From the IMG/VR virus record IMGVR_UViG_3300022707_000476, positions 1-37,620 of that record: 37,620 nucleotides of DNA; one strand, written 5' to 3'. Source of the DNA: a virus. Below, piece after piece: positions 13,777 to 35,386 of this stretch. The number at the start of each line of letters is the position of its first letter. The stretch's first letter is position 1. The position numbers were made by a program, and so were the translations under genes. The notes beneath the pieces are model-generated. The model was given only the letters and a program-made list of their open reading frames with translations. It had not been told where the DNA came from and made no database searches.

Positions 13777-16566
13777 TTAATCGTCGTCTCTATTCCATCT
13801 GGTCAAGAACTGAGGGTAGACTACGGTATCAGAAACAGACACCCGCATCCTATACTCCTGCTTTCGTCCGCCTCTTCGTCGATTGTAGATTGTAATCTCC
13901 CAGAACGTCGAATCGTTTGTAAATATCGAGTTTGGATACATATCGACGATGGCCAAACCTGAACTGTTCGCCTCGGTTTCGCTAACCACCGGTGTAAAAA
14001 TATAATCGGTTCCATCGGACAACAGGCTATCGTTCACCGATACAAGTTCAACTCGAACGAAGGCACCAGACAAGAATGAACCATTCGCCTCTCGTAGATC
14101 GAAAGCGACTTGTGTCAAGCTGCCAGCAGTTCGGAAGACAAAGAGGGTATCCGTACCCGCACCTGTGACTGTGAAGGTATCTATATTATTAGAGTACCCC
14201 GGTTCAGTTGTGAAGATCACCCAATCGTCAGCGTCCAGGTTGAACGAAGCCTCACCGTCGTTATCGGTTAGCTGGAATAGTGGCTGAGAGCTTTGAGCGA
14301 CATTGTTGATATAGAGTGGTGCCGCCCTGAGAGTGGTATCAGGTGACGCCGAACTATCGATTAGAACCCAGACAATAGAAAACGCACCATCACCAGCCGG
14401 ACTGGAAACACTACTGACTTCGGTATCAAGAAATTTCCCAAAGGTGCCGGCGGTTGTATGCCCAGATTGCAACTCATCCCACACGCCATCGACGATAGCA
14501 GAAACCGTCAAGCTCCCCGCCTCACCTTGGAACGATGTAGAATCTTTGAACCTGGCAATGGTATCGCCATCCTCATTGATCGAGGCGATTATGACATTAC
14601 CAGCAACCGTTATTTCGATCACAGTATCTTGGCTGAGTCGTGCAAAGAGATTGTTCAGTAGCATCAACTTGGTGTCGGATGTGTCGGTCAACGATGCTTC
14701 CAAGGCTAATGCTGAAACATCGGCCGTTGCTCCCCATATCTTAGCAGAATCACCGAATGATCCCGCAACTCCGTCACGGGCCTCAAGCAGAGATAACCAA
14801 ATCGAATCAGCAGCAATTTGTCCAACACTTTGAAGTGTATAAGACATATCATCATCTAAACTCGTAAGTGTGCCATTGTTAATAACTTTTACAGCCCCTC
14901 TAACTTCAACTACGCCTGATACAACACTTGCATTAAATGTTAATTGGCCCGATCCAGCAAATGTAAGACTATCAGTAACCCCCTCTCCCATTGAATCAAC
15001 TACTAATGCACCCTGAAAATCTTGGAATACAGCAGATTGTGAAAGTGATGTTCCAAAACTGATAACAGTTCCACCGTCAGGATTCCCTGAAAAACATTGA
15101 TGGAATCTGTAATTAGCAGCGGCAGACATCTTAATCAGCCCATTTAGAGCGCATCCCAAGAAAGCAGAAGCGTTTAAAGTAATATCATTTATCACGCATT
15201 CACGAAACACAACCCTATTAGAGCCAGTGCCTACTCCCGATATTTGTCCCCTGATAAATCTTGCGCCACTAACGGATTGCCCTCCAAGAGCAACTGTATA
15301 TCCAGACCCTGTAAATTCCCAAGTGTCGTAATTTTCATCAAGTGTTATATTAGACCCAGGAAGAAGTCTATAAACTCTAAATCCTTTTGCATCCGCAACG
15401 ATTCTTGCATTTGCCAGTGACCCATCATCAATAGGATTTTCAATTGTTCCGTCAACGCCTACTAAAGCAGTCGTGGATCCGCTTGAGCTAATCCATACAG
15501 CTCCACCCTCATAGCTACCAGTAGAAGTTTCAGAATGAACAATAGCAGGAGTGATGCTATACTCAGTTGTCGCATCTGGAATGGTAAACCATGTTGGTCT
15601 TATATTAGCTGATTGATCTGAACCAGTATAATCAACAATCAAAACGGGAGGCTGTCCTACTCCAGTCCCTCCAACTATTGTTAATCTACTCCCATTATAA
15701 AAATCATCGACAGAAGATACAGTTGGATCACCACCACCAGTTTGTAGTGATATAGTGTTTGATGTATTTGCAGGAACATTATCGCTGGTTCCAGTATGAA
15801 TCGTTCCAGCATCAGACAGTTCACGAATTCTACGACCTAAACTTTTGGCGATATTATGATCGCCACCCGTTAGAACTTCATCTGCAACGGAGTCGGAAAT
15901 AGCCGCCATATCTGCATCTTTAATTCCGACATCATTCGTAACAGTTGTAGTGGTAACCACAGTCCCTATGGTTGTACCAATTAATGATTGGGTTGAAGTC
16001 GAAGCATCAATGTTAGCCCAATCAAGTCCAGCAGTTCCCCCCGCTGATATATCAAGTGTTCGTCCTGCGACAGTTGGTCTTACCCATTTAAGACTTGTGC
16101 TATCAAGTATTTTGACTATAACAGTCAGCAAAGAATCGATTGCCGTGTTGTAATCTCTCGTCTGATAAAGTTGGAACTCACCACGAAAGGGTGTCAACAA
16201 ATCAAGACTGATATCCCAAATATTAACTATATAACTATAAAGACCATCCCTCCCGGCACCGTCGATATTGGCCACTGAAAGTTTCCAACTATAGGTCTCA
16301 AAATTGAATGATCCAGTAGTAGTAATGAGAGAACTGTTGCCGAGCACAGAGTCCTCATACGCTATTGCTCCATTAGGCAAATAAACATGTATGAAGAGAG
16401 AATCTCCGGCGGCCAGGTCAACTAAATTATGACCAGAAGAATCAAGTAGAAAGAACGATGGCGATATAGAATCTGCCGCTGTTGATCCTGTATTATTTAC
16501 TATATTTGCTGATGCTGAGTTAGCCACCAACATCAATGTCAGTATGAAAAGTATTTTTTTCAGCAT
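13777..16566 (-). CDS. Large exported tail-fibre-like protein (929 aa)
   Basis: A Sec signal peptide (MLKKILFILTLMLVANSASA, cleavage near residue 20) opens the protein. The middle carries blocks typical of environmental phage fibres: a VADEVLTGGDHN and GRRIRELSDAGTIHTGTS stretch (about 225-260), FYNGSRLTIVGGTGVGQPP (about 285), GTIENPIDDGS, then a single-stranded beta-helix-like run with DGVWDELQSGHTTAGTFGKF near 695. The C-terminus has carboxypeptidase-regulatory-like beta repeats. Receptor binding is the likely role. A signal peptide on a fibre protein is unusual, and base composition drops inside the gene (about 14.8-16.5 kb). AGGAG lies nine bases before the ATG. Confidence 0.75.
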   Translation of the reverse strand: MLKKILFILTLMLVANSASANIVNNTGSTAADSISPSFFLLDSSGHNLVDLAAGDSLFIHVYLPNGAIAYEDSVLGNSSLITTTGSFNFETYSWKLSVANIDGAGRDGLYSYIVNIWDISLDLLTPFRGEFQLYQTRDYNTAIDSLLTVIVKILDSTSLKWVRPTVAGRTLDISAGGTAGLDWANIDASTSTQSLIGTTIGTVVTTTTVTNDVGIKDADMAAISDSVADEVLTGGDHNIAKSLGRRIRELSDAGTIHTGTSDNVPANTSNTISLQTGGGDPTVSSVDDFYNGSRLTIVGGTGVGQPPVLIVDYTGSDQSANIRPTWFTIPDATTEYSITPAIVHSETSTGSYEGGAVWISSSGSTTALVGVDGTIENPIDDGSLANARIVADAKGFRVYRLLPGSNITLDENYDTWEFTGSGYTVALGGQSVSGARFIRGQISGVGTGSNRVVFRECVINDITLNASAFLGCALNGLIKMSAAANYRFHQCFSGNPDGGTVISFGTSLSQSAVFQDFQGALVVDSMGEGVTDSLTFAGSGQLTFNASVVSGVVEVRGAVKVINNGTLTSLDDDMSYTLQSVGQIAADSIWLSLLEARDGVAGSFGDSAKIWGATADVSALALEASLTDTSDTKLMLLNNLFARLSQDTVIEITVAGNVIIASINEDGDTIARFKDSTSFQGEAGSLTVSAIVDGVWDELQSGHTTAGTFGKFLDTEVSSVSSPAGDGAFSIVWVLIDSSASPDTTLRAAPLYINNVAQSSQPLFQLTDNDGEASFNLDADDWVIFTTEPGYSNNIDTFTVTGAGTDTLFVFRTAGSLTQVAFDLREANGSFLSGAFVRVELVSVNDSLLSDGTDYIFTPVVSETEANSSGLAIVDMYPNSIFTNDSTFWEITIYNRRRGGRKQEYRMRVSVSDTVVYPQFLTRWNRDDD

Positions 16567-18691: not shown

Positions 18692-21442
18692 TTATCCAAA
18701 AAGTTGTATGCCCACTATCTTAGTTGAATCTTCTAATTGAGTGAGAGATATTGGCAAGAACTGCCTCCCTGACCAACTTGACCCAAATAAAAGAACATGA
18801 GGATCAACAGTAATCGGATCAAGTTCAAACCAATCGCCGAATTCCAGGTCGGCATATAAATAACCAAGAGTTTCGAGTGTAACTACGTTATGCTGGTTTG
18901 ACCAGATGCCATCAGAGCCGACTAAAAATGCTGCAATGGCTGCCGCATGTGTGCCGGCCACATTTTTCCACCGTGCTTTATATTCCTTTAGTCCGAACGA
19001 TGTAATGGAGGCCGCATCGGTAACGGTGTCAATGTCTATGTATTGACCTCTGTCCTCCATCCAACGAGACTCGTAAGTAATATCATTGAATATCTTCTGC
19101 TCTTTCTTGACTGATATCGATCCCTGTTTTATGTGCGAATAAGGGATGACAATCGGGTGCGAACCCCGAGTGGCTGTCGTGGGAGTCGTGTCAGACATAT
19201 CAATCAGCTTTGCTTTACCCGATGAGGAGTATATAAAAGAGAATGTTGATTGTTCGCATAGCTGCCTGATAGCCTTGTTACTGTCCATTGTATTATCATC
19301 ATGGAAATTGATTCGAGCTTCAATCGAAGTATTCTCGGCATTTATAAATGATACCAAATCGATGTCTGCATCAACCAGTCCGAGTTCGTCACGCAGAATT
19401 GATTCGATAATTCCAGCGGGGTCTTTTATAAATTGTCCATCGGCGTAATTACTGGAACGGCCGGTAATCCAGCTACCATATTCACGACCTTCGCAACCAG
19501 CGAATCCATTCTCAACAGTCTTTACTCGATGCCTCATGTTCAAGCGGATGTCGTAAACCCTGATAAGGGTTTCATTTAGCGAAACACCATCCCCCGTATT
19601 GGTTGTCTGGGTCACGTTGGGATCAGTCTCAAATTCCATATATAGGACCAACGGGAACGAGCCCTCTGAATCGATGATACTCGAACCCTCTGCACTATGT
19701 TGTCTCAAGTGAAATGCAAAATCTTCTCTTAGATCAGTCACGCCTTGAGTCTTAAATATCCATTCATCCCCGACTGACCTGGCAGACGTTGAAGAACTAA
19801 AATCGACCGTTATACCAGTCGTGATTGCTTGAGAGGAACCTGTAATCTGCACAGCCTTTTTTCCAAGACCGCTGATCCGAGCAACCCATTCAAACGTGCT
19901 ACTGGACCATGTTCCAGTATCTGTTGCCACAAATGTGTCAAGAAACGTGAATTGAGTTGAAGACCCGACGATCAGGACCGTATGAAATCCGTTGTAGTTG
20001 GTCGTCCCTAATATCGAAACGATATCACCAACAATTAAATTGTGATCTGCGTCCGTGTTAGCATGCACGTTTGCCCCGGCATCGGCAAAGGAACTTATAT
20101 TGCCAGCGGAAGTCCTGTCAATAGTCACGGTGATTTCATCGTCATCCGCCCCTACGTTCGATCCGCCAGATGTCATATCATTTGGACCGGAACCGGCATA
20201 TGTCGGATCAAAAACTGCACTTGATGCCGACCCCTGCCCCCAGAAAACATTGATATCCTGGAGGTTATTATTAACCACAACGGGATCAGTCAGGGTAGCT
20301 CTTTGGTCAGTACCATCCGTTTGCCGATAATAAATGAATGCGTTTTCAAGTGAGAATGTTAAGGCAGCATCGTCGGTCACACACAGCAGTTCCAATATAT
20401 ACTTATTGGCACCACTAATGGTTATTATATCTCCCACATCATTTTCTAAGGGACCACCTGTGACGTGAGTATTGAACGCTACTAATATACGGCAATGGCG
20501 AGAATCACCATCATCGGTTCCCTCATCGATGTAATCTAACAATTCAGCATAGGTAGTACTCTTGCCGTCGAAAGCATTGCCAAGGTTAGTGACATTGGTA
20601 TCGGGGACTGACTGATCGTAAGCCCCACTGTAATCGTCAATTGGCCTAACTCTGGTATTCGCCTCAAAGTTTCTCGGTATAGACGGTGCCCCCGGAAGCA
20701 CAAGAGTAAAGGTTCCCCGTCCAGAATTGTCAGCGTCAAACGTGGTGTCTTCGAGTATTGTGGGATCAAGAAAGCCATTCAATTTAGTATGACTTGCGTC
20801 TATCTGATTCAGTATGTGGTCACTTACTACCCAGGTTGACTCAACATTGTCATCAATTTGAATTGCGACGGCCAGGCCGGTATCAGTTGCATTGTCCACC
20901 GCATAGATAAATTCCCCGTAAACGAGTGGAATTAGTTTTGATCTGTTCGCAGCGGGAGCGGCCGGAAATACTGAACTTATAAGATTCTGCGGCAAGATCG
21001 CAACCGTAGCTTTTGTACTATCGACAGCGCGTAATTGTATTTGATTGACTGAGTAGGCGGGGGATGTCGTAAGTGTACCCACAAACCGCACCAAACAATC
21101 AGAGAGACCAGTAACAAGACCGCCTGCGGCGAGATATAGAGTCACAGTTGCATTTAGAATCGAATCCCATTCATCAGATAGGATGGCACCGGTCCCGAGA
21201 TAATCCGCATTATTTAAAGTCAGACGAACATCTGAAATTCGCCACTGCCGGGTATATAGATCAATCGATTGTGCTATCGATATCCGGCGGGTTAGGAGTG
21301 GGTAAACATGACCATCTGTCAGTTGCATATCTACATCAGAGAACAGCCAGACGGTCGCTCCGTCATCTACCTTGACAATTAGATGCCGATCAGCGGCCGT
21401 GCTCTGCTGGAACGGCGTGAAGGCGGCTGGTCTGGTTAGCAT
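18692..21442 (-). CDS. Tail tip/hub protein (916 aa)
   Basis: Size and position (after tape measure and distal tail protein) fit the central tail hub. The N-terminus (VKVDDGATVWLFSDVDMQL, YPLLTRRISIAQSIDLYTRQ) resembles baseplate hub starts. The C-terminal third, from GIIESILRDELGLVDADIDL through AIRQLCEQSTFSFIYSSSGK to FGDWFELDP, reads like the gp27/gpJ-type hub domain found in siphophages. The middle contains beta-rich insertions. GAGG is seven bases before the ATG, and it overlaps the upstream stop by one base. It has no signal peptide, unlike the genes that follow. Confidence 0.75.
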   Translation of the reverse strand: MLTRPAAFTPFQQSTAADRHLIVKVDDGATVWLFSDVDMQLTDGHVYPLLTRRISIAQSIDLYTRQWRISDVRLTLNNADYLGTGAILSDEWDSILNATVTLYLAAGGLVTGLSDCLVRFVGTLTTSPAYSVNQIQLRAVDSTKATVAILPQNLISSVFPAAPAANRSKLIPLVYGEFIYAVDNATDTGLAVAIQIDDNVESTWVVSDHILNQIDASHTKLNGFLDPTILEDTTFDADNSGRGTFTLVLPGAPSIPRNFEANTRVRPIDDYSGAYDQSVPDTNVTNLGNAFDGKSTTYAELLDYIDEGTDDGDSRHCRILVAFNTHVTGGPLENDVGDIITISGANKYILELLCVTDDAALTFSLENAFIYYRQTDGTDQRATLTDPVVVNNNLQDINVFWGQGSASSAVFDPTYAGSGPNDMTSGGSNVGADDDEITVTIDRTSAGNISSFADAGANVHANTDADHNLIVGDIVSILGTTNYNGFHTVLIVGSSTQFTFLDTFVATDTGTWSSSTFEWVARISGLGKKAVQITGSSQAITTGITVDFSSSTSARSVGDEWIFKTQGVTDLREDFAFHLRQHSAEGSSIIDSEGSFPLVLYMEFETDPNVTQTTNTGDGVSLNETLIRVYDIRLNMRHRVKTVENGFAGCEGREYGSWITGRSSNYADGQFIKDPAGIIESILRDELGLVDADIDLVSFINAENTSIEARINFHDDNTMDSNKAIRQLCEQSTFSFIYSSSGKAKLIDMSDTTPTTATRGSHPIVIPYSHIKQGSISVKKEQKIFNDITYESRWMEDRGQYIDIDTVTDAASITSFGLKEYKARWKNVAGTHAAAIAAFLVGSDGIWSNQHNVVTLETLGYLYADLEFGDWFELDPITVDPHVLLFGSSWSGRQFLPISLTQLEDSTKIVGIQLFG

Positions 21443-28856: not shown

Positions 28857-30383
28857 TTAGCTGGTAGCTACGTTGAATATCCAGTTGACCGAAGTTACTG
28901 TACTAGATGGAGTGAACGTAGGTTTGAAGTCCAGTCGCTTGAAGGCAACCATATTCCAGACATCGTTAATGTTGTCCCGCTCAGTCAGAACTTCGACACC
29001 ACGGCGAATACCGCGCAAGAACATATCGGTATTACAGTAGATGAAGACAGTCCGATCTACGGTAACATTATCGAAGATACCGACAGCGTTGAGATCGTCA
29101 TCAACAAATTCGCTTTCGATAACTGGCACGTTGTAGATTCGACCGAGTTCACCCTGGAGCACGACAGCGTTAGGGCCGTACTTATCGAGGGTCTGGAAGT
29201 TCTCCATTTCGTCTTTATTCAGCAAGCGGAGCAAATGCCCCTTAACCGAACAGAAGATTCTGAGATCGGCAGCGGCTCGTCCATACTTACCCATCTGCCC
29301 ACGGCAAGTGGTGTGTTTAGTCTCATTATGGGTTGAGCCGTCGACGCCAATCACTGCGTCCGCACTACCACTGTTGATGGTCTGGAAGATAGCATGGCGT
29401 AAACCATCGAAAGCCTTACGGAAATCAGTCGATGCAAGTGCTCTACCCGAATCGAGATCAGCGTCCGCACCATCGTTCCCGTTGATAATCGAACGATCTT
29501 CGGAACGTGCAATGGATCTGGTGATCCCCTTCATGTAAAGAGGCATGACAGCAAAGGCGGCATCCTCAGTCAACTCGGTAGAAATCTGATAACGACCACG
29601 GGCCTTTTTCGATATCAGGGTCATATCACCAGAAGAATAGGTTTCTTCGTTCGAATCGAACCCACTAACAAGTGTGATCTTTTCGCCAATCAGCTTGGCA
29701 AAAGTATCACCGTCATCGGTATCGATTTCCATTGTTTTGGCTGTCATCTGGACCTCTTGGAACTGACTAGCCACCAATGTTTCTTGCCTGATATCTTCAA
29801 TCAGCGATCCAGAGAAACCGATAGGAACCCACTCTTCACCTTCACCAGCGGTCTCGGTATCCATCGCCTTAGCGAAAGCTGAGGCGCGTTTGAATAGGTG
29901 AAGACTCTTACGACGCTCGATCTTATCGATCTGGTGATATTGACCGCCGTTATTTCTGGAGGCACATTCCAGCATGATGTCGATACCCATGATATCGTCG
30001 TTCATCTTTTGAAGACAAATTAACTGATCCGCTTGTACCGACGGCACGGTCCCCCGAATGACCGACGGCTCAAGCATGACCAATTCCTTGATCGTACCTG
30101 GTAGAATGTTTCGATCAACGATGACATTCTTCTTGGCTTTCAGGGTTTTGATTTCATCTTTCAAATCATTGTACGCCTTTGAGAAGTCAGCGGTAACATT
30201 CTCGATCAGAGTCTTGACGTCGCCCTCTGATAATTGAGGCTGACTGGCGATCTCGGTTAGCTGCTTTTCTAACCGAGCCAGCGTTTCGAACTTCGGTCCG
30301 AGTTCTTTTGTGGTGATCTCGGTTTGGTCTTTTATCGCCTTGGCGATTGTGACCTCAACATCTTTTTGCAGTTCTGGATCCAT
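28857..30383 (-). CDS. Major capsid protein with scaffold-like N-terminus, from internal start (508 aa)
   Basis: A second start inside the fusion gene: ATG at 30383 (MDPELQKDVEVTIAKAIKD) with AGGAG exactly seven bases upstream. The first 100 or so residues are a coiled-coil scaffold or delta-type domain (KELGPKFETLARLEKQLTEI). The rest is an HK97-fold capsid (EEWVPIGFSGSLIEDIRQET, FKRLDFKPTF at the end). This would supply the bulk capsid subunit, as the lambda Nu3/C nested genes do for scaffold. Structure typical of HK97 gp5; internal initiation is inferred from the ribosome site. Confidence 0.75.
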   Translation of the reverse strand: MDPELQKDVEVTIAKAIKDQTEITTKELGPKFETLARLEKQLTEIASQPQLSEGDVKTLIENVTADFSKAYNDLKDEIKTLKAKKNVIVDRNILPGTIKELVMLEPSVIRGTVPSVQADQLICLQKMNDDIMGIDIMLECASRNNGGQYHQIDKIERRKSLHLFKRASAFAKAMDTETAGEGEEWVPIGFSGSLIEDIRQETLVASQFQEVQMTAKTMEIDTDDGDTFAKLIGEKITLVSGFDSNEETYSSGDMTLISKKARGRYQISTELTEDAAFAVMPLYMKGITRSIARSEDRSIINGNDGADADLDSGRALASTDFRKAFDGLRHAIFQTINSGSADAVIGVDGSTHNETKHTTCRGQMGKYGRAAADLRIFCSVKGHLLRLLNKDEMENFQTLDKYGPNAVVLQGELGRIYNVPVIESEFVDDDLNAVGIFDNVTVDRTVFIYCNTDMFLRGIRRGVEVLTERDNINDVWNMVAFKRLDFKPTFTPSSTVTSVNWIFNVATS

Positions 30384-31004
30384 AATAATTCTCCTGTTAC
30401 TCCCCGGCTTCCGGGATGTGTAAAACTTCAATGTTAAATTATGTTCTTTTGCTTCTCTTACGAGATCGGCATTCTTTATCGGATCAACCGTTTCAATGGT
30501 CGCGCCCAAATGAGCCGGTGATGGCACTAGCGAAGTTTCTATCAATTCCTGCTCAATGAAGTGTAATCCGCCCTCTTCCATAACCGTGAACTCAATTGGA
30601 TTGAATCCGACCGAATAGGCCCGGTAAACCCCGGCCTTGACCAACAGAGCCACATCCTCGCCTTGCTTCGTTCCATAGATTACGTTGCGACCGAACAAAC
30701 CCTCTTGACGAATCTCGATGTCTGTCCAGATCCCGAGCAGGATAGTGCGCCAGTCGTGGTTGAACATGAACACCGGGTATTTTAGAAAGTTTTCAATTCG
30801 CCATCCGCTCGGTTCAACGATATCCCCCATGCGATCAACTCCACCGCGAGACATCCAGCCCTCTGTTGCCAGAATCGGCGTAATGGACTTATCAGCCCAA
30901 TCAGGCGTGATAGACATGAACTTCTGGACAACATCAATATCGGATTTCTTTGGTTCTCCGATACTCTCTATCCCGCCCGCGATATGCCTCATCCGGTTCT
31001 TCAT
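28857..31004 (-). CDS. Prohead protease-major capsid protein fusion (715 aa)
   Basis: Residues about 30-205 are an HK97-type S78 prohead protease: WMSRGGVDRMGDIVEPSGW, FMFNHDW (likely catalytic His), AYSVGFNPIE, and QELIETSLVPSPAH (likely catalytic Ser). Residues 208-715 are scaffold-like region plus HK97 capsid. HK97 itself uses separate genes. The join (about 190-207, KFYTSRKPGSNRR) looks like read-through of a former spacer, and an internal ribosome site there restarts translation. The fusion could arise naturally or from one base missing in the assembly. Capsid and protease calls are firm. Confidence 0.85.
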   Translation of the reverse strand: MKNRMRHIAGGIESIGEPKKSDIDVVQKFMSITPDWADKSITPILATEGWMSRGGVDRMGDIVEPSGWRIENFLKYPVFMFNHDWRTILLGIWTDIEIRQEGLFGRNVIYGTKQGEDVALLVKAGVYRAYSVGFNPIEFTVMEEGGLHFIEQELIETSLVPSPAHLGATIETVDPIKNADLVREAKEHNLTLKFYTSRKPGSNRRIIMDPELQKDVEVTIAKAIKDQTEITTKELGPKFETLARLEKQLTEIASQPQLSEGDVKTLIENVTADFSKAYNDLKDEIKTLKAKKNVIVDRNILPGTIKELVMLEPSVIRGTVPSVQADQLICLQKMNDDIMGIDIMLECASRNNGGQYHQIDKIERRKSLHLFKRASAFAKAMDTETAGEGEEWVPIGFSGSLIEDIRQETLVASQFQEVQMTAKTMEIDTDDGDTFAKLIGEKITLVSGFDSNEETYSSGDMTLISKKARGRYQISTELTEDAAFAVMPLYMKGITRSIARSEDRSIINGNDGADADLDSGRALASTDFRKAFDGLRHAIFQTINSGSADAVIGVDGSTHNETKHTTCRGQMGKYGRAAADLRIFCSVKGHLLRLLNKDEMENFQTLDKYGPNAVVLQGELGRIYNVPVIESEFVDDDLNAVGIFDNVTVDRTVFIYCNTDMFLRGIRRGVEVLTERDNINDVWNMVAFKRLDFKPTFTPSSTVTSVNWIFNVATS

Positions 31005-31007
31005 CGA

Positions 31008-31574
31008 TTATCTGCCCTGGGTCTTGACCGTGATCTTGTAATTTATGCCACCGTCTGCGGAAACAATGGCCGCAGTCGAATCCATTAAGATCGACCTTAT
31101 TCTCATGTAGGTTTTGTCAATTAGGGATGAATCGGACAGGGTGAAGAATGTATAGTCGGCATTGAGTGCGGCACCGCCAACATGAATCACATCCGTTTTA
31201 ACAGAATAAATTATTTTGCTGGGAGTACCACCAGATTCGGCAGTGAAGAATTCAACGTAAACACTATCTTCTGTGGTATCTGGAACTTCACCACCGCCCC
31301 CAAGATCGAACGAGATATACTCGATCACATACCATCCCGTCACCGTATTGTACCTATCGGCATCTGTGAAGGTCATCAGTTCGGTGCTGCTATTGGTCGG
31401 CGTTGTGAAAGTATCTACCACCGTTGCTGCATCAACAGACTTAAACCAGAAGAACGACTGCTGTTGTTTCGAAGGCGTCGGCCGGTCAGCATACGCCTGG
31501 TCGGGACTGAATACGGTTCCGATCAGAGCCAAGGCAACGACCGTCATAACTGTTAGGAATACTAATCTTTTCAT
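31008..31574 (-). CDS. Exported protein inside the head module (188 aa)
   Basis: The Sec signal MKRLVFLTVMTVVALALIGT is followed by an AYA cleavage motif near residue 29. The mature domain is beta-rich (VDTFTTPTNSSTELMTFTDA, TGWYVIEYISFDLGGGGEVP, YMRIRSILMDSTAAIV) with a conserved-looking TEDSVYVEFFTAE segment. GGAG lies seven bases before the ATG. It sits between portal and protease-capsid genes, an odd place for an exported protein; no family recognised. It may be a cell-surface or superinfection protein expressed with the late genes. Confidence 0.72.
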   Translation of the reverse strand: MKRLVFLTVMTVVALALIGTVFSPDQAYADRPTPSKQQQSFFWFKSVDAATVVDTFTTPTNSSTELMTFTDADRYNTVTGWYVIEYISFDLGGGGEVPDTTEDSVYVEFFTAESGGTPSKIIYSVKTDVIHVGGAALNADYTFFTLSDSSLIDKTYMRIRSILMDSTAAIVSADGGINYKITVKTQGR

Positions 31575-31586
31575 GGTGTTTCTCCT

Positions 31587-33680
31587 TTAAGTGACATCAA
31601 CTGGTATCATTGTACATCTGCAATTTATTACATTTTCAGGGCTCCCGCTTGGGTCGGACGGAAAGGCCATCAAATCATCACCAACAAGAAATTTCTCATT
31701 AGCTTTGACCTTTTGACCGTCGGCAATAATGTGATCCATCCTGGTTTCACCATCGAGGACGGCAACCCACTCTTTGCCGAGACCAGCCTGTGAATAAGCC
31801 TCTGAGGCACCGCCGTTGACCATGCCGTTCATTTCGGTTCTGGCGATCCTCATTGATCGGTTGTGATCGAGCTTCTTGTCGGTCCAACCTGCATACAGAC
31901 TTCGTAAGTTCTTCGATATCTCTTGAATGCTGTCGCCTCGTCCGAATCCAGAAGTGAGCACTTCCCGTACTTGCGCCTGCGAAAATCTGTTTATCTCAGT
32001 CAGCTTCAAAGCAAAGTTCTCCGCCATTACTTGAACCCTTGGATCAGTCGAATTAAAATCGATTGGTAGGTCGAAATCAGAAACGGCAGCATTGCCGCCA
32101 GCTTCAACAGATTGTTTAATCGCAATGCCGGTTTGTTGGATCAGAATATCATTCTCTTCGATAAGATTGAATAGCCGATCAGGTATCTCATTATTGCCAT
32201 CCTGTTTGCCAACGTAAAGCTCCAAGACTGACATCATCTTTCCTTCACCGGTGATCTCTCTGAGTCGTTCAATCAGGCGATTGATCTGGCCGTTCAGGTA
32301 AGCAATTATGATCTTCTGGAACCGCTTCTCGTTCTTAGTCAGAAGATCCTCGTGTCGTTCTCGTTGCTCGTTCTCACCGGCTTTGGTTAGAGTCCGGGTG
32401 CCTGGCTCAAATCTGATCTGTTTAGTTTCCTCATTGTCCGCTGGCGGCGTCAACATGAATCCCGCCTGTGGAGTGAAGAATTCGTTACCGCCTTCGTCAT
32501 CTTCGACCGGTTCATAACCGAGCTGCTCACGCATTTCGTTAAAGGTCAATGCTTTGTTTTTCCATTGATCCATGATCCGCTTGGATTTCTCGTTGATATC
32601 TTCTTGTAGGCCAGTTACAAGTTTCCGGTCGTATTTAACTCGCCATTCATCGCCGAATCGTGGCTTGACAAACTGGAAGTTCAAGGCCGTCTCGATGGAA
32701 CGTCGATATGGCTCAACAGCCGACCGCTCGTAGACTTCATCCTGTTTATTTGCGTTGGCATAGCTGGCTCCATCCAAGACACCGATCTTGATTGGTGGTA
32801 CTCGATAGGCTGCTAAGACTTTTCTCATAACCCGATCGTCAATTTCCTTGGGTATTAGATCTTTCAGCGCGCCACTTAGGCGGGAAACGCTCATCCCCTG
32901 ATCGGTTATTATCGATTTGAATTGGTTTTTTGGACCTTCGTAAGATGTACGAATTTGCTTGGCTATCTTTTTTCGTGTCGCTTCGTCAAGTTTCTGGTCG
33001 GTCGAGACAATCAATCCTGCCATTGCGTTATTGCGGAAAAAGTTATTCAGGTAGAGATCCAAATTAAGATCTGTCAATATGGAAGTACGAACCACCTCGC
33101 TTGGTGGGAGACCGTAATACTCACCACTCGGGTTAATCAATTTCAGATGCACCACGTCACTGACTTCATCTGTATTAACTTTCGCACCGCCGTTGCTGAT
33201 CACATAGCCAGTGATACGGCCCATAGAATCGGCCTTAACCTTCACCCAATCCGGTCGGGCATAATAGAATTCGTTATCGGTTTCGTCATAGATCATATAT
33301 GAATCGCCAGCAGACAGCAGGCCCGCCACCCAACGTTCGGTCAGGTGATCCCACGTCTCGGCACTGGTATTGATCTTATGGAATAATTCGAATAGTTCAC
33401 CCTCTGTCTGGGTTATCCAGACCTGCTCACCATCGATTGTTTCCCGTCTCTGGACATCGAGCGGAGTAGATCCAACGTCCCTGGCAATACAGGTGATCGC
33501 CGCATAAGCATAGACGTTGACCATGTAAACTTTAAGATGAGCCTGTGTATCCGAAGTATGAGGTTGTTCGTCATCAAATCCTGAGTTGACTACATGGAGT
33601 GCGCCAATCGGGTTCTCTTTCTGGATCAGACTGAGTGCACGGCTAAACCGCCATCTACGTAATGCTTCAAAGACATTCAT
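31587..33680 (-). CDS. Portal protein fused to MuF-like head morphogenesis domain (697 aa)
   Basis: Residues about 1-420 are an HK97-type portal: VYAYAAITCIARDVGSTPLD, WDHLTERWVAGLLSAGDSYM, VSRLSGALKDLIPKEIDD, and an ERSAVEPYRRSIETALN stretch. The C-terminal part from about 540 is a MuF/SPP1 gp7-like domain: REVLTSGFGRGDSIQEISKN, RSMRIARTEMNGMVNGGASE, and the ending ENVINCRCTMIPVDV. The portal is the DNA channel at the head vertex; MuF domains aid head assembly or are injected. Start at 33680 overlaps the terminase stop (TGATG) and gives the usual MNVFEALRRWRF start; the frame extends to 33734. Confidence 0.86.
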   Translation of the reverse strand: MNVFEALRRWRFSRALSLIQKENPIGALHVVNSGFDDEQPHTSDTQAHLKVYMVNVYAYAAITCIARDVGSTPLDVQRRETIDGEQVWITQTEGELFELFHKINTSAETWDHLTERWVAGLLSAGDSYMIYDETDNEFYYARPDWVKVKADSMGRITGYVISNGGAKVNTDEVSDVVHLKLINPSGEYYGLPPSEVVRTSILTDLNLDLYLNNFFRNNAMAGLIVSTDQKLDEATRKKIAKQIRTSYEGPKNQFKSIITDQGMSVSRLSGALKDLIPKEIDDRVMRKVLAAYRVPPIKIGVLDGASYANANKQDEVYERSAVEPYRRSIETALNFQFVKPRFGDEWRVKYDRKLVTGLQEDINEKSKRIMDQWKNKALTFNEMREQLGYEPVEDDEGGNEFFTPQAGFMLTPPADNEETKQIRFEPGTRTLTKAGENEQRERHEDLLTKNEKRFQKIIIAYLNGQINRLIERLREITGEGKMMSVLELYVGKQDGNNEIPDRLFNLIEENDILIQQTGIAIKQSVEAGGNAAVSDFDLPIDFNSTDPRVQVMAENFALKLTEINRFSQAQVREVLTSGFGRGDSIQEISKNLRSLYAGWTDKKLDHNRSMRIARTEMNGMVNGGASEAYSQAGLGKEWVAVLDGETRMDHIIADGQKVKANEKFLVGDDLMAFPSDPSGSPENVINCRCTMIPVDVT

Positions 33681-35386
33681 CAGACAAAGGATATCATAGG
33701 TAAAGAGTGGCACATATCGTGAGCTATCCGGCAATAGTTATCAGCATGCTGGTGGTGATCTTCTGATTTAGCCCAAACGAACTTGATCTTGCCAGACGCA
33801 TTCTCTTCCTGGACCCGGGTACTGGCACACATCATGCGAGCAAAATCTCCACCGTCCTGATTCTTGTAATCACGAGGTAGCTCGACCTTTTTGTCAATAT
33901 ACCATTGCATCGATTCATCAAGGGAGGCAGTCCGTTTGACGCGAATGGTCTGTGATACATAGTCGGGTTTCATTTCCTCATCACCTGTATCTGGTATATT
34001 ATAATAGCAGACAAACCAGCCAGGATGAGCCTGAACCCACTCCAATGCGGCATGGTGCTCAGGTTCAGCGTCAATCACACCTCCGGTCATTCCGAAGCGT
34101 TTGACCATCATGCTAAGTTCATGCCAATCCGGCACTGTACCGGTGAAAACCTTTCGCCGCTTTCCACTGACAACCTTTTCGATGTGAAGATGCAGACGAG
34201 CACCAACATCGACCCCGCCGTAAGTGCCCTTTGCGGACATCGGCATTTCGTAATCAGCAACACAATTCTTTAGAATGTCGTCTGTGAACTTGGCACCCGA
34301 CCCGGCATAAGTCCGGCTAAGTATATTATTCTCAAACCGTTGTAGCCGAGTGTGGTTGCCCTGGGCCTTATTAAACGATGCGAAGGTTTCGTTGATGACC
34401 TGCCGTGGCTGTCCAATATGATCATTGCCAGGGAAGCCGAATAGACGATCGATATCATAACCACTGACATCCCTACCGGGGTACTCTTGGACCCATTCAC
34501 CCGCAGCTAATCGATCCATTGGCCTGTCACAATGGCGGCAGACAGGACCGGAATCCTGTCCACCACCGGGCATGTAACGCAAAGAATAGGAAGAATCATC
34601 TTCTTTTCGAACAAAGTTTATTAGCCAGTCGAGCCGCTGCCACTCATTGCAATGAGTGCATTTGATATACCAGAATTTCTTGTCAGACAATTCAAATTCT
34701 TCATCAATTCCGAATCCTGAAATGGTAGGGTTGCCAATCTTGCGCCATATTTCACGCTCCGCTCCAAGAGTTCTATCCTCGCCGTAAACCATCCCTCGAA
34801 CGTCACACAAATCAAATTCGTCATAGATCATAACATCAGCGTTGAATTCGTGGAATGTACTCTTACCGCCGGAGCCGACAAATGCCCAGGTCTGGCCGTA
34901 AATCGTTTTGAGTCCTTTGGCGTCGACCGCCTTTTTATGCAGGCTGAAATTGGCATGATATTCGGGGACTCTGGGAACAAGGACATCGAACCGGGTGGTT
35001 ATAAACCGATTTCGAATTTCCCTGTCCGGCAGAACGTACATTCCAGAAAGACCCTGCTGGGCCAGGCAGAATAGGTCACAGAGTGCCCATTCGGATACCC
35101 CTGTTTTGGTAGATTTCTTGCTTACTATCTTGTTGGAGTGGTCCAGGTATAGAGCGATCATCCAAGGCCGATTGTCGAATCTCATCCGGTCGGCTTTGAG
35201 TGGCCGATGGATATATTCAGCAAAGGCCATCCGTGGAAAGTCTACATATAGCTGCGCTGCCGCCTGCCGTTCGCTCGGATCAGTTATCGATAGGATCGAG
35301 GCGGGGATGTTGACTGGCGGTCTTGTAGATGGCTGAGAGTCGTTGGAAACGCTCGTTGCCACTTCCTGATCCAGTTCCGTTGCCAT
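33680..35386 (-). CDS. terL: Terminase large subunit, GpA-like (568 aa)
   Basis: The packaging motor. A Walker A-like SKKSTKTGVSE (about 89-99) and Walker B with DVMIYDEFD (about 184-192) form the ATPase. A zinc module with CTHC and CRHC (about 243-290) is typical of the GpA type. Nuclease-domain acidic residues appear in GGVDVGARLHLHI, GGVIDAEPEHH and HADNYCRIAHD. I choose ATG 35386 because GGGAGG precedes it. The frame extends to 35476, but that adds a spurious membrane-like leader. The gene overlaps the small-subunit gene by 107 bases, unusually long. Confidence 0.87.
   Translation of the reverse strand: MATELDQEVATSVSNDSQPSTRPPVNIPASILSITDPSERQAAAQLYVDFPRMAFAEYIHRPLKADRMRFDNRPWMIALYLDHSNKIVSKKSTKTGVSEWALCDLFCLAQQGLSGMYVLPDREIRNRFITTRFDVLVPRVPEYHANFSLHKKAVDAKGLKTIYGQTWAFVGSGGKSTFHEFNADVMIYDEFDLCDVRGMVYGEDRTLGAEREIWRKIGNPTISGFGIDEEFELSDKKFWYIKCTHCNEWQRLDWLINFVRKEDDSSYSLRYMPGGGQDSGPVCRHCDRPMDRLAAGEWVQEYPGRDVSGYDIDRLFGFPGNDHIGQPRQVINETFASFNKAQGNHTRLQRFENNILSRTYAGSGAKFTDDILKNCVADYEMPMSAKGTYGGVDVGARLHLHIEKVVSGKRRKVFTGTVPDWHELSMMVKRFGMTGGVIDAEPEHHAALEWVQAHPGWFVCYYNIPDTGDEEMKPDYVSQTIRVKRTASLDESMQWYIDKKVELPRDYKNQDGGDFARMMCASTRVQEENASGKIKFVWAKSEDHHQHADNYCRIAHDMCHSLPMISFV

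Follow-up and report, generated by a model that had tools for sequence, protein, structure and literature searches.

The window, which is the whole IMG/VR record of 37,620 bases, carries a protease–capsid fusion (W) that, judged from its own sequence and those of its relatives, very probably holds a nested in-frame gene (probability about 0.85). The two products would be a 79.9-kDa protease–delta–capsid protein and a 56.5-kDa delta–capsid protein. The sequence-only reading had described one 715-codon ORF with an AGGAG spaced 7 nt from an internal ATG and a TAA in the −1 frame 13 bases ahead of it, and all three are found exactly as placed. Its proposal that nested starts yield both protease–capsid and free capsid is strongly supported by the conservation of the internal start. 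The features of the locus are as follows.

28857..31004, minus strand: protease–delta–capsid fusion ORF (715 aa, 79.9 kDa; ATG at 31004)
30480..30878, minus strand: S78 prohead protease domain (aa 43–175; from Pfam, alignment, and predicted fold)
30384..30479, minus strand: disordered linker (aa 176 to about 207–209; pLDDT mostly below 50)
30397..30399, minus strand: −1-frame TAA, judged a chance stop (TTA on the plus strand; 13 nt 5' of the ATG)
30391..30395, minus strand: AGGAG Shine–Dalgarno (SD) site inside the ORF (CTCCT on the plus strand; spacing of 7 nt to the internal ATG)
30381..30383, minus strand: internal in-frame ATG, Met208, the putative free-capsid start (CAT on the plus strand; from conservation and homology with split relatives)
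28857..30383, minus strand: putative nested gene for a free delta–capsid precursor (508 aa, 56.5 kDa)
29952..30383, minus strand: delta (built-in scaffold) region, end approximate (long helices from residue 210)
28857..29951, minus strand: HK97-fold capsid (nearest solved structures, the T5 and DT57C capsids)

Profile searches identify both halves of the fusion. S78 (PF04586) matches aa 79–172 with 26.5 bits, above the Pfam gathering cut-off of 21; Phage_capsid (PF05065) matches aa 393–514 with 38.2 bits against a Pfam cut-off of 24.2; and the capsid model TIGR01554 scores 39.6, above its curated cut-off of 27.5. The score for TIGR01543, the HK97 family prohead protease, is 43 bits and falls below the curated equivalog cut-off of 59. 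Within the protease, D57, H83, G91, S131, E156, and S158 are invariant in an alignment with 22 fused relatives, and H83 and S131 are presumably catalytic by analogy with the S78 family. The AlphaFold2 model of W is of modest confidence (mean pLDDT 60) and predicts a protease fold at aa 43–175, a disordered linker, and a long helix from residue 210. The predicted delta helices span residues 210–254, 260–297, and 322–351, which places Met208 at the border of linker and delta helix, two residues ahead of the helix start. The capsid part resembles the T5 and DT57C capsids in both fold and profile comparison, and the match to the T5 pb8 precursor profile starts within the delta region of W.

The surroundings of W have features of their own. 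Between portal and protease lies a 188-aa ORF (31008–31574, minus strand) with a signal-peptide-like N-terminus (MKRLVFLTVMTVVALALIGTVF...), unusual in a head cluster and with no match in Pfam or PHROGs. A 715-aa ORF (31587–33734, minus strand) likewise joins the portal to Mu F-like minor head domains, a second head-module fusion of a kind common to GBK2-like phages. Two large ORFs of the tail region (13777–16566 and 18692–21442, minus strand; 929 and 916 aa) have no Pfam or PHROGs match.

The evidence for a second start is the conservation of its ribosome-binding site in many phages that are only distantly related. In W alone, the internal site comes first among the 28 in-frame ATG/GTG codons (p = 0.033 by synonymous shuffle). 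Across 41 fused ORFs from IMG/VR in 23 clusters, the best SD-start pairs of the linker zone have summed SD energies of −154.9, against −93.6 ± 10.9 in synonymous shuffles, none of 300 of which was as low. Read singly, the linkers carry AGGAG, AAGGA, or AAAGG 6–10 nt ahead of the Met that opens the delta region, while the encoded residues vary. An independent scan of bacterial genomes, for which the expectation was set beforehand, covered 21 fused ORFs in 12 clusters and bore the expectation out; 92% of these clusters have an internal start at −5 kcal/mol or lower, compared with 17% of other in-frame ATG/GTG codons. The shuffle excess is smaller in this set (−98.5 versus −79.6 ± 7.7), where recurring residues such as KEG and KG account for the reduction. 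Among Enterobacterales, linker sequences and lengths differ, yet the AAGGA-like site stays.

The same result is obtained by a rule blind to the SD, which takes the first in-frame ATG 22–60 codons past S78 in 29 clusters defined at 60%. Such an ATG is present in 27 of the 29 clusters, where about 60% would be expected, and an SD core precedes 24 of these 27 as opposed to 54 of 449 (12%) other in-frame ATGs (Fisher 1e-17). The cores fall in codon phases 0, 1, and 2 (6, 9, and 9 cases) and encode many different dipeptides; it is therefore the nucleotide motif that is kept, not a peptide. Fused relatives that lack the internal start, which the sequence-only reading would have counted against nested starts, do occur as exceptions to the majority that keep it: L017 has neither ATG nor SD at the border, and in L127/L128 the Met is kept but no SD precedes it. 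The internal site of L064 is weak, and L008 and L076 use GTG. Taken over all clusters, sequence conservation demonstrates selection for a ribosome-binding site and an in-frame start at the domain boundary.

An SD-ATG could also persist for a short divergence as the unused leftover of a former capsid gene, with a single polypeptide made and then self-cleaved. Self-cleavage could indeed supply free capsid, and fused and split states do interchange in the protease tree, with 12 changes, at least five of them forced by starred branches, although one forced change is owed to a truncated contig, and truncated contigs such as L072 carry state labels that cannot be relied on. That tree is built from few columns, and with W on a long branch its placement is unsure. 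A candidate fusion in Moraxella, Mcat1, was rejected and has two genes. Among relatives with separate genes, L009–L016 and L019–L023 have a protease ORF with a long acidic C-terminal extension that is perhaps a scaffold part. A leftover is nevertheless unlikely, because a neutral remnant would decay, whereas here the site is retained in every codon phase although the linkers around it have diverged beyond recognition.

The sequence-only reading had also raised a recent base loss or a one-base assembly error that joined two ordinary genes in the genome of W only. This account draws on the −1-frame stop just 5' of the SD-ATG, directly ahead of which that frame reads FNIEVLHIPEAGE; the other off-frame at the join stops at once too, so the −1-frame stop is unremarkable. 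Linker comparisons point both ways: against L008 the −1 frame of W scores 25.5 and the true frame 10.5, whereas against L021 the true frame fits better (24.5 versus 13), the linker being too short and variable to decide the frame. Both explanations are rejected because the fusion is shared by relatives, not because of linker similarity. Searches of IMG/VR with the protein of W alone, and likewise with the terminase, gave no match, and the nearest relatives come from a scan with W and L008: L124 (41% identity), L125 (36%), L126, which is L008 (33%), and L127/L128 (32%). These five contigs represent four relatives, L127 and L128 being separate assemblies of one of them. All four are fused in frame, L127 and L128 in the same frame, as are all relatives of the W subfamily. 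Both L002 and L003, relatives matched through the portal, are fused in frame as well and have an SD-ATG where the two parts meet, and in-frame protease–capsid fusions number 65 ORFs in 29 clusters (60% clustering) overall. The fusion is therefore old, and inheritance by W of an old fusion is the simplest account of these sequences. A recent loss or error would require W to split and then fuse again, and is very unlikely. The further suggestion that ribosomes use both frames finds no support either, the −1 frame being without sign of selection.

Least likely is that the SD-like site, lying as it does at the predicted domain boundary, merely slows ribosomes there for protease folding and starts nothing, since properly spaced in-frame starts are enriched past linker SD cores, out-of-frame ones are not, and split relatives start at the same Met. 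An in-frame start follows 5–11 nt past the SD core at 27 of 62 linker cores versus 75 of 745 elsewhere; out-of-frame starts show no linker excess (2/62 versus 63/745), and initiation is therefore favoured over pausing. In the split relatives L106 and L109, the only possible start of the capsid gene, preceded by an SD, is the homologue of the internal Met in fused relatives. The N-terminus there is MATYxEQIAAxE, compared with MKTYAEQIAALE at the internal Met of fused relatives. RNA around the internal site shows no unusual folding (z of −0.10 and −1.39), no promoter was found between the two starts (a single upstream match is within chance), and no Rfam match or tRNA was found.

In the nested-gene reading, ribosomes starting at 31004 would make the protease–linker–delta–capsid fusion, and those starting at the internal AGGAG-ATG (30383) would make delta–capsid alone. 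Most of the shell would be built from free subunits, with which the fused subunits may co-assemble by way of the delta and capsid domains that both have. A limited copy number of protease would thus be enclosed in the procapsid, where it would probably cut away delta and linker. The dose of protease would be set by initiation. SD strength in W is −4.4 at the 5' start and −7.4 at the internal start, the internal Met in this comparison being hand-assigned. A consistently weaker 5' start was considered and rejected; the Enterobacterales show the reverse, and several relatives have a 5' SD stronger than the internal one, so the product ratio is unreadable from SD strength.

Nested genes of this logic have precedents. 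In lambda C/Nu3, an in-frame nested gene gives a long protease form and a short form sharing its C-terminal part; the partner domain builds the protease in, and the short product is the scaffold. Herpesvirus UL26/UL26.5 follows the same long/short logic but with a separate transcript. W resembles lambda C/Nu3 in apparently having a ribosome-binding site of its own for an inner in-frame start and in the common C-terminus; it differs in that the short product would be a shell protein with a delta scaffold domain and HK97-fold capsid, rather than a scaffold that is removed. In T5 and DT57C, the closest solved capsids, the capsid precursor (pb8) likewise bears a delta domain, whereas in T5-like phages protease and capsid are two genes.

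Fusions of this kind are already known. Protease/major capsid protein fusions are described in Arthrobacter phage clusters AM, AU, and AN (PMC5513430), and protease/capsid fusions in Paracoccus prophages (PMC6536676) and thaumarchaeal proviruses (PMC6563490). Like W, these and the NF045541-type fusions encode the protease and the HK97-fold capsid within a single uninterrupted ORF. The NF045541 model itself (cut-off 525 bits) has no match to W at E 0.001 and gives L002 51.2 bits. Unlike W as read here, the published fusions are treated as single proteins in description or annotation, and the passages covered in those papers (PMC5513430, PMC6536676, PMC6563490) mention no internal start. No report of an internal start in protease–capsid fusions was found in the open-licence literature, a scope that does not prove novelty.

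The arrangement reaches well beyond W. The fusion and its internal SD-ATG occur in Rhizobium phage RHph_X2_26, E. coli phage JLK-2012, and Salmonella phage FSL SP-016. Among 5,426 complete E. coli genomes, 1,242 carry the E. coli form, there under the annotation phage major capsid protein, and the site is kept in the diverged alleles of this relative that were examined. In a small sample of fusions from alphaproteobacterial genomes that match NF045540, with a ClpP-like protease, SD-ATGs again stand where the two parts meet; examples are AAGGAGGcacccATG in L135 and AAGGAatccgacATG in L143. L135, L143, L138, and L139 are fusions or long ORFs in which the SD-ATG lies at the end of this unrelated protease, which suggests convergence. 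In L144, the ClpP-type protease ORF crosses a strong AAAGGAGG-ATG and then leaves the capsid frame, the pair being out of frame.

It is likely that head protease–capsid fusions generally keep an internal ribosome-binding site, so that one gene gives two capsid forms with the dose set by initiation rate, and that it evolved with no fewer than two unrelated protease types (S78 and ClpP-like) and was missed in annotations, including that of the E. coli gene. Such an arrangement would explain how a protease can be welded to the capsid without a protease on each shell subunit. If it is general, a common phage gene whose annotation gives a single protein makes two, with consequences for proteomics, heterologous capsid expression, and gene calling.
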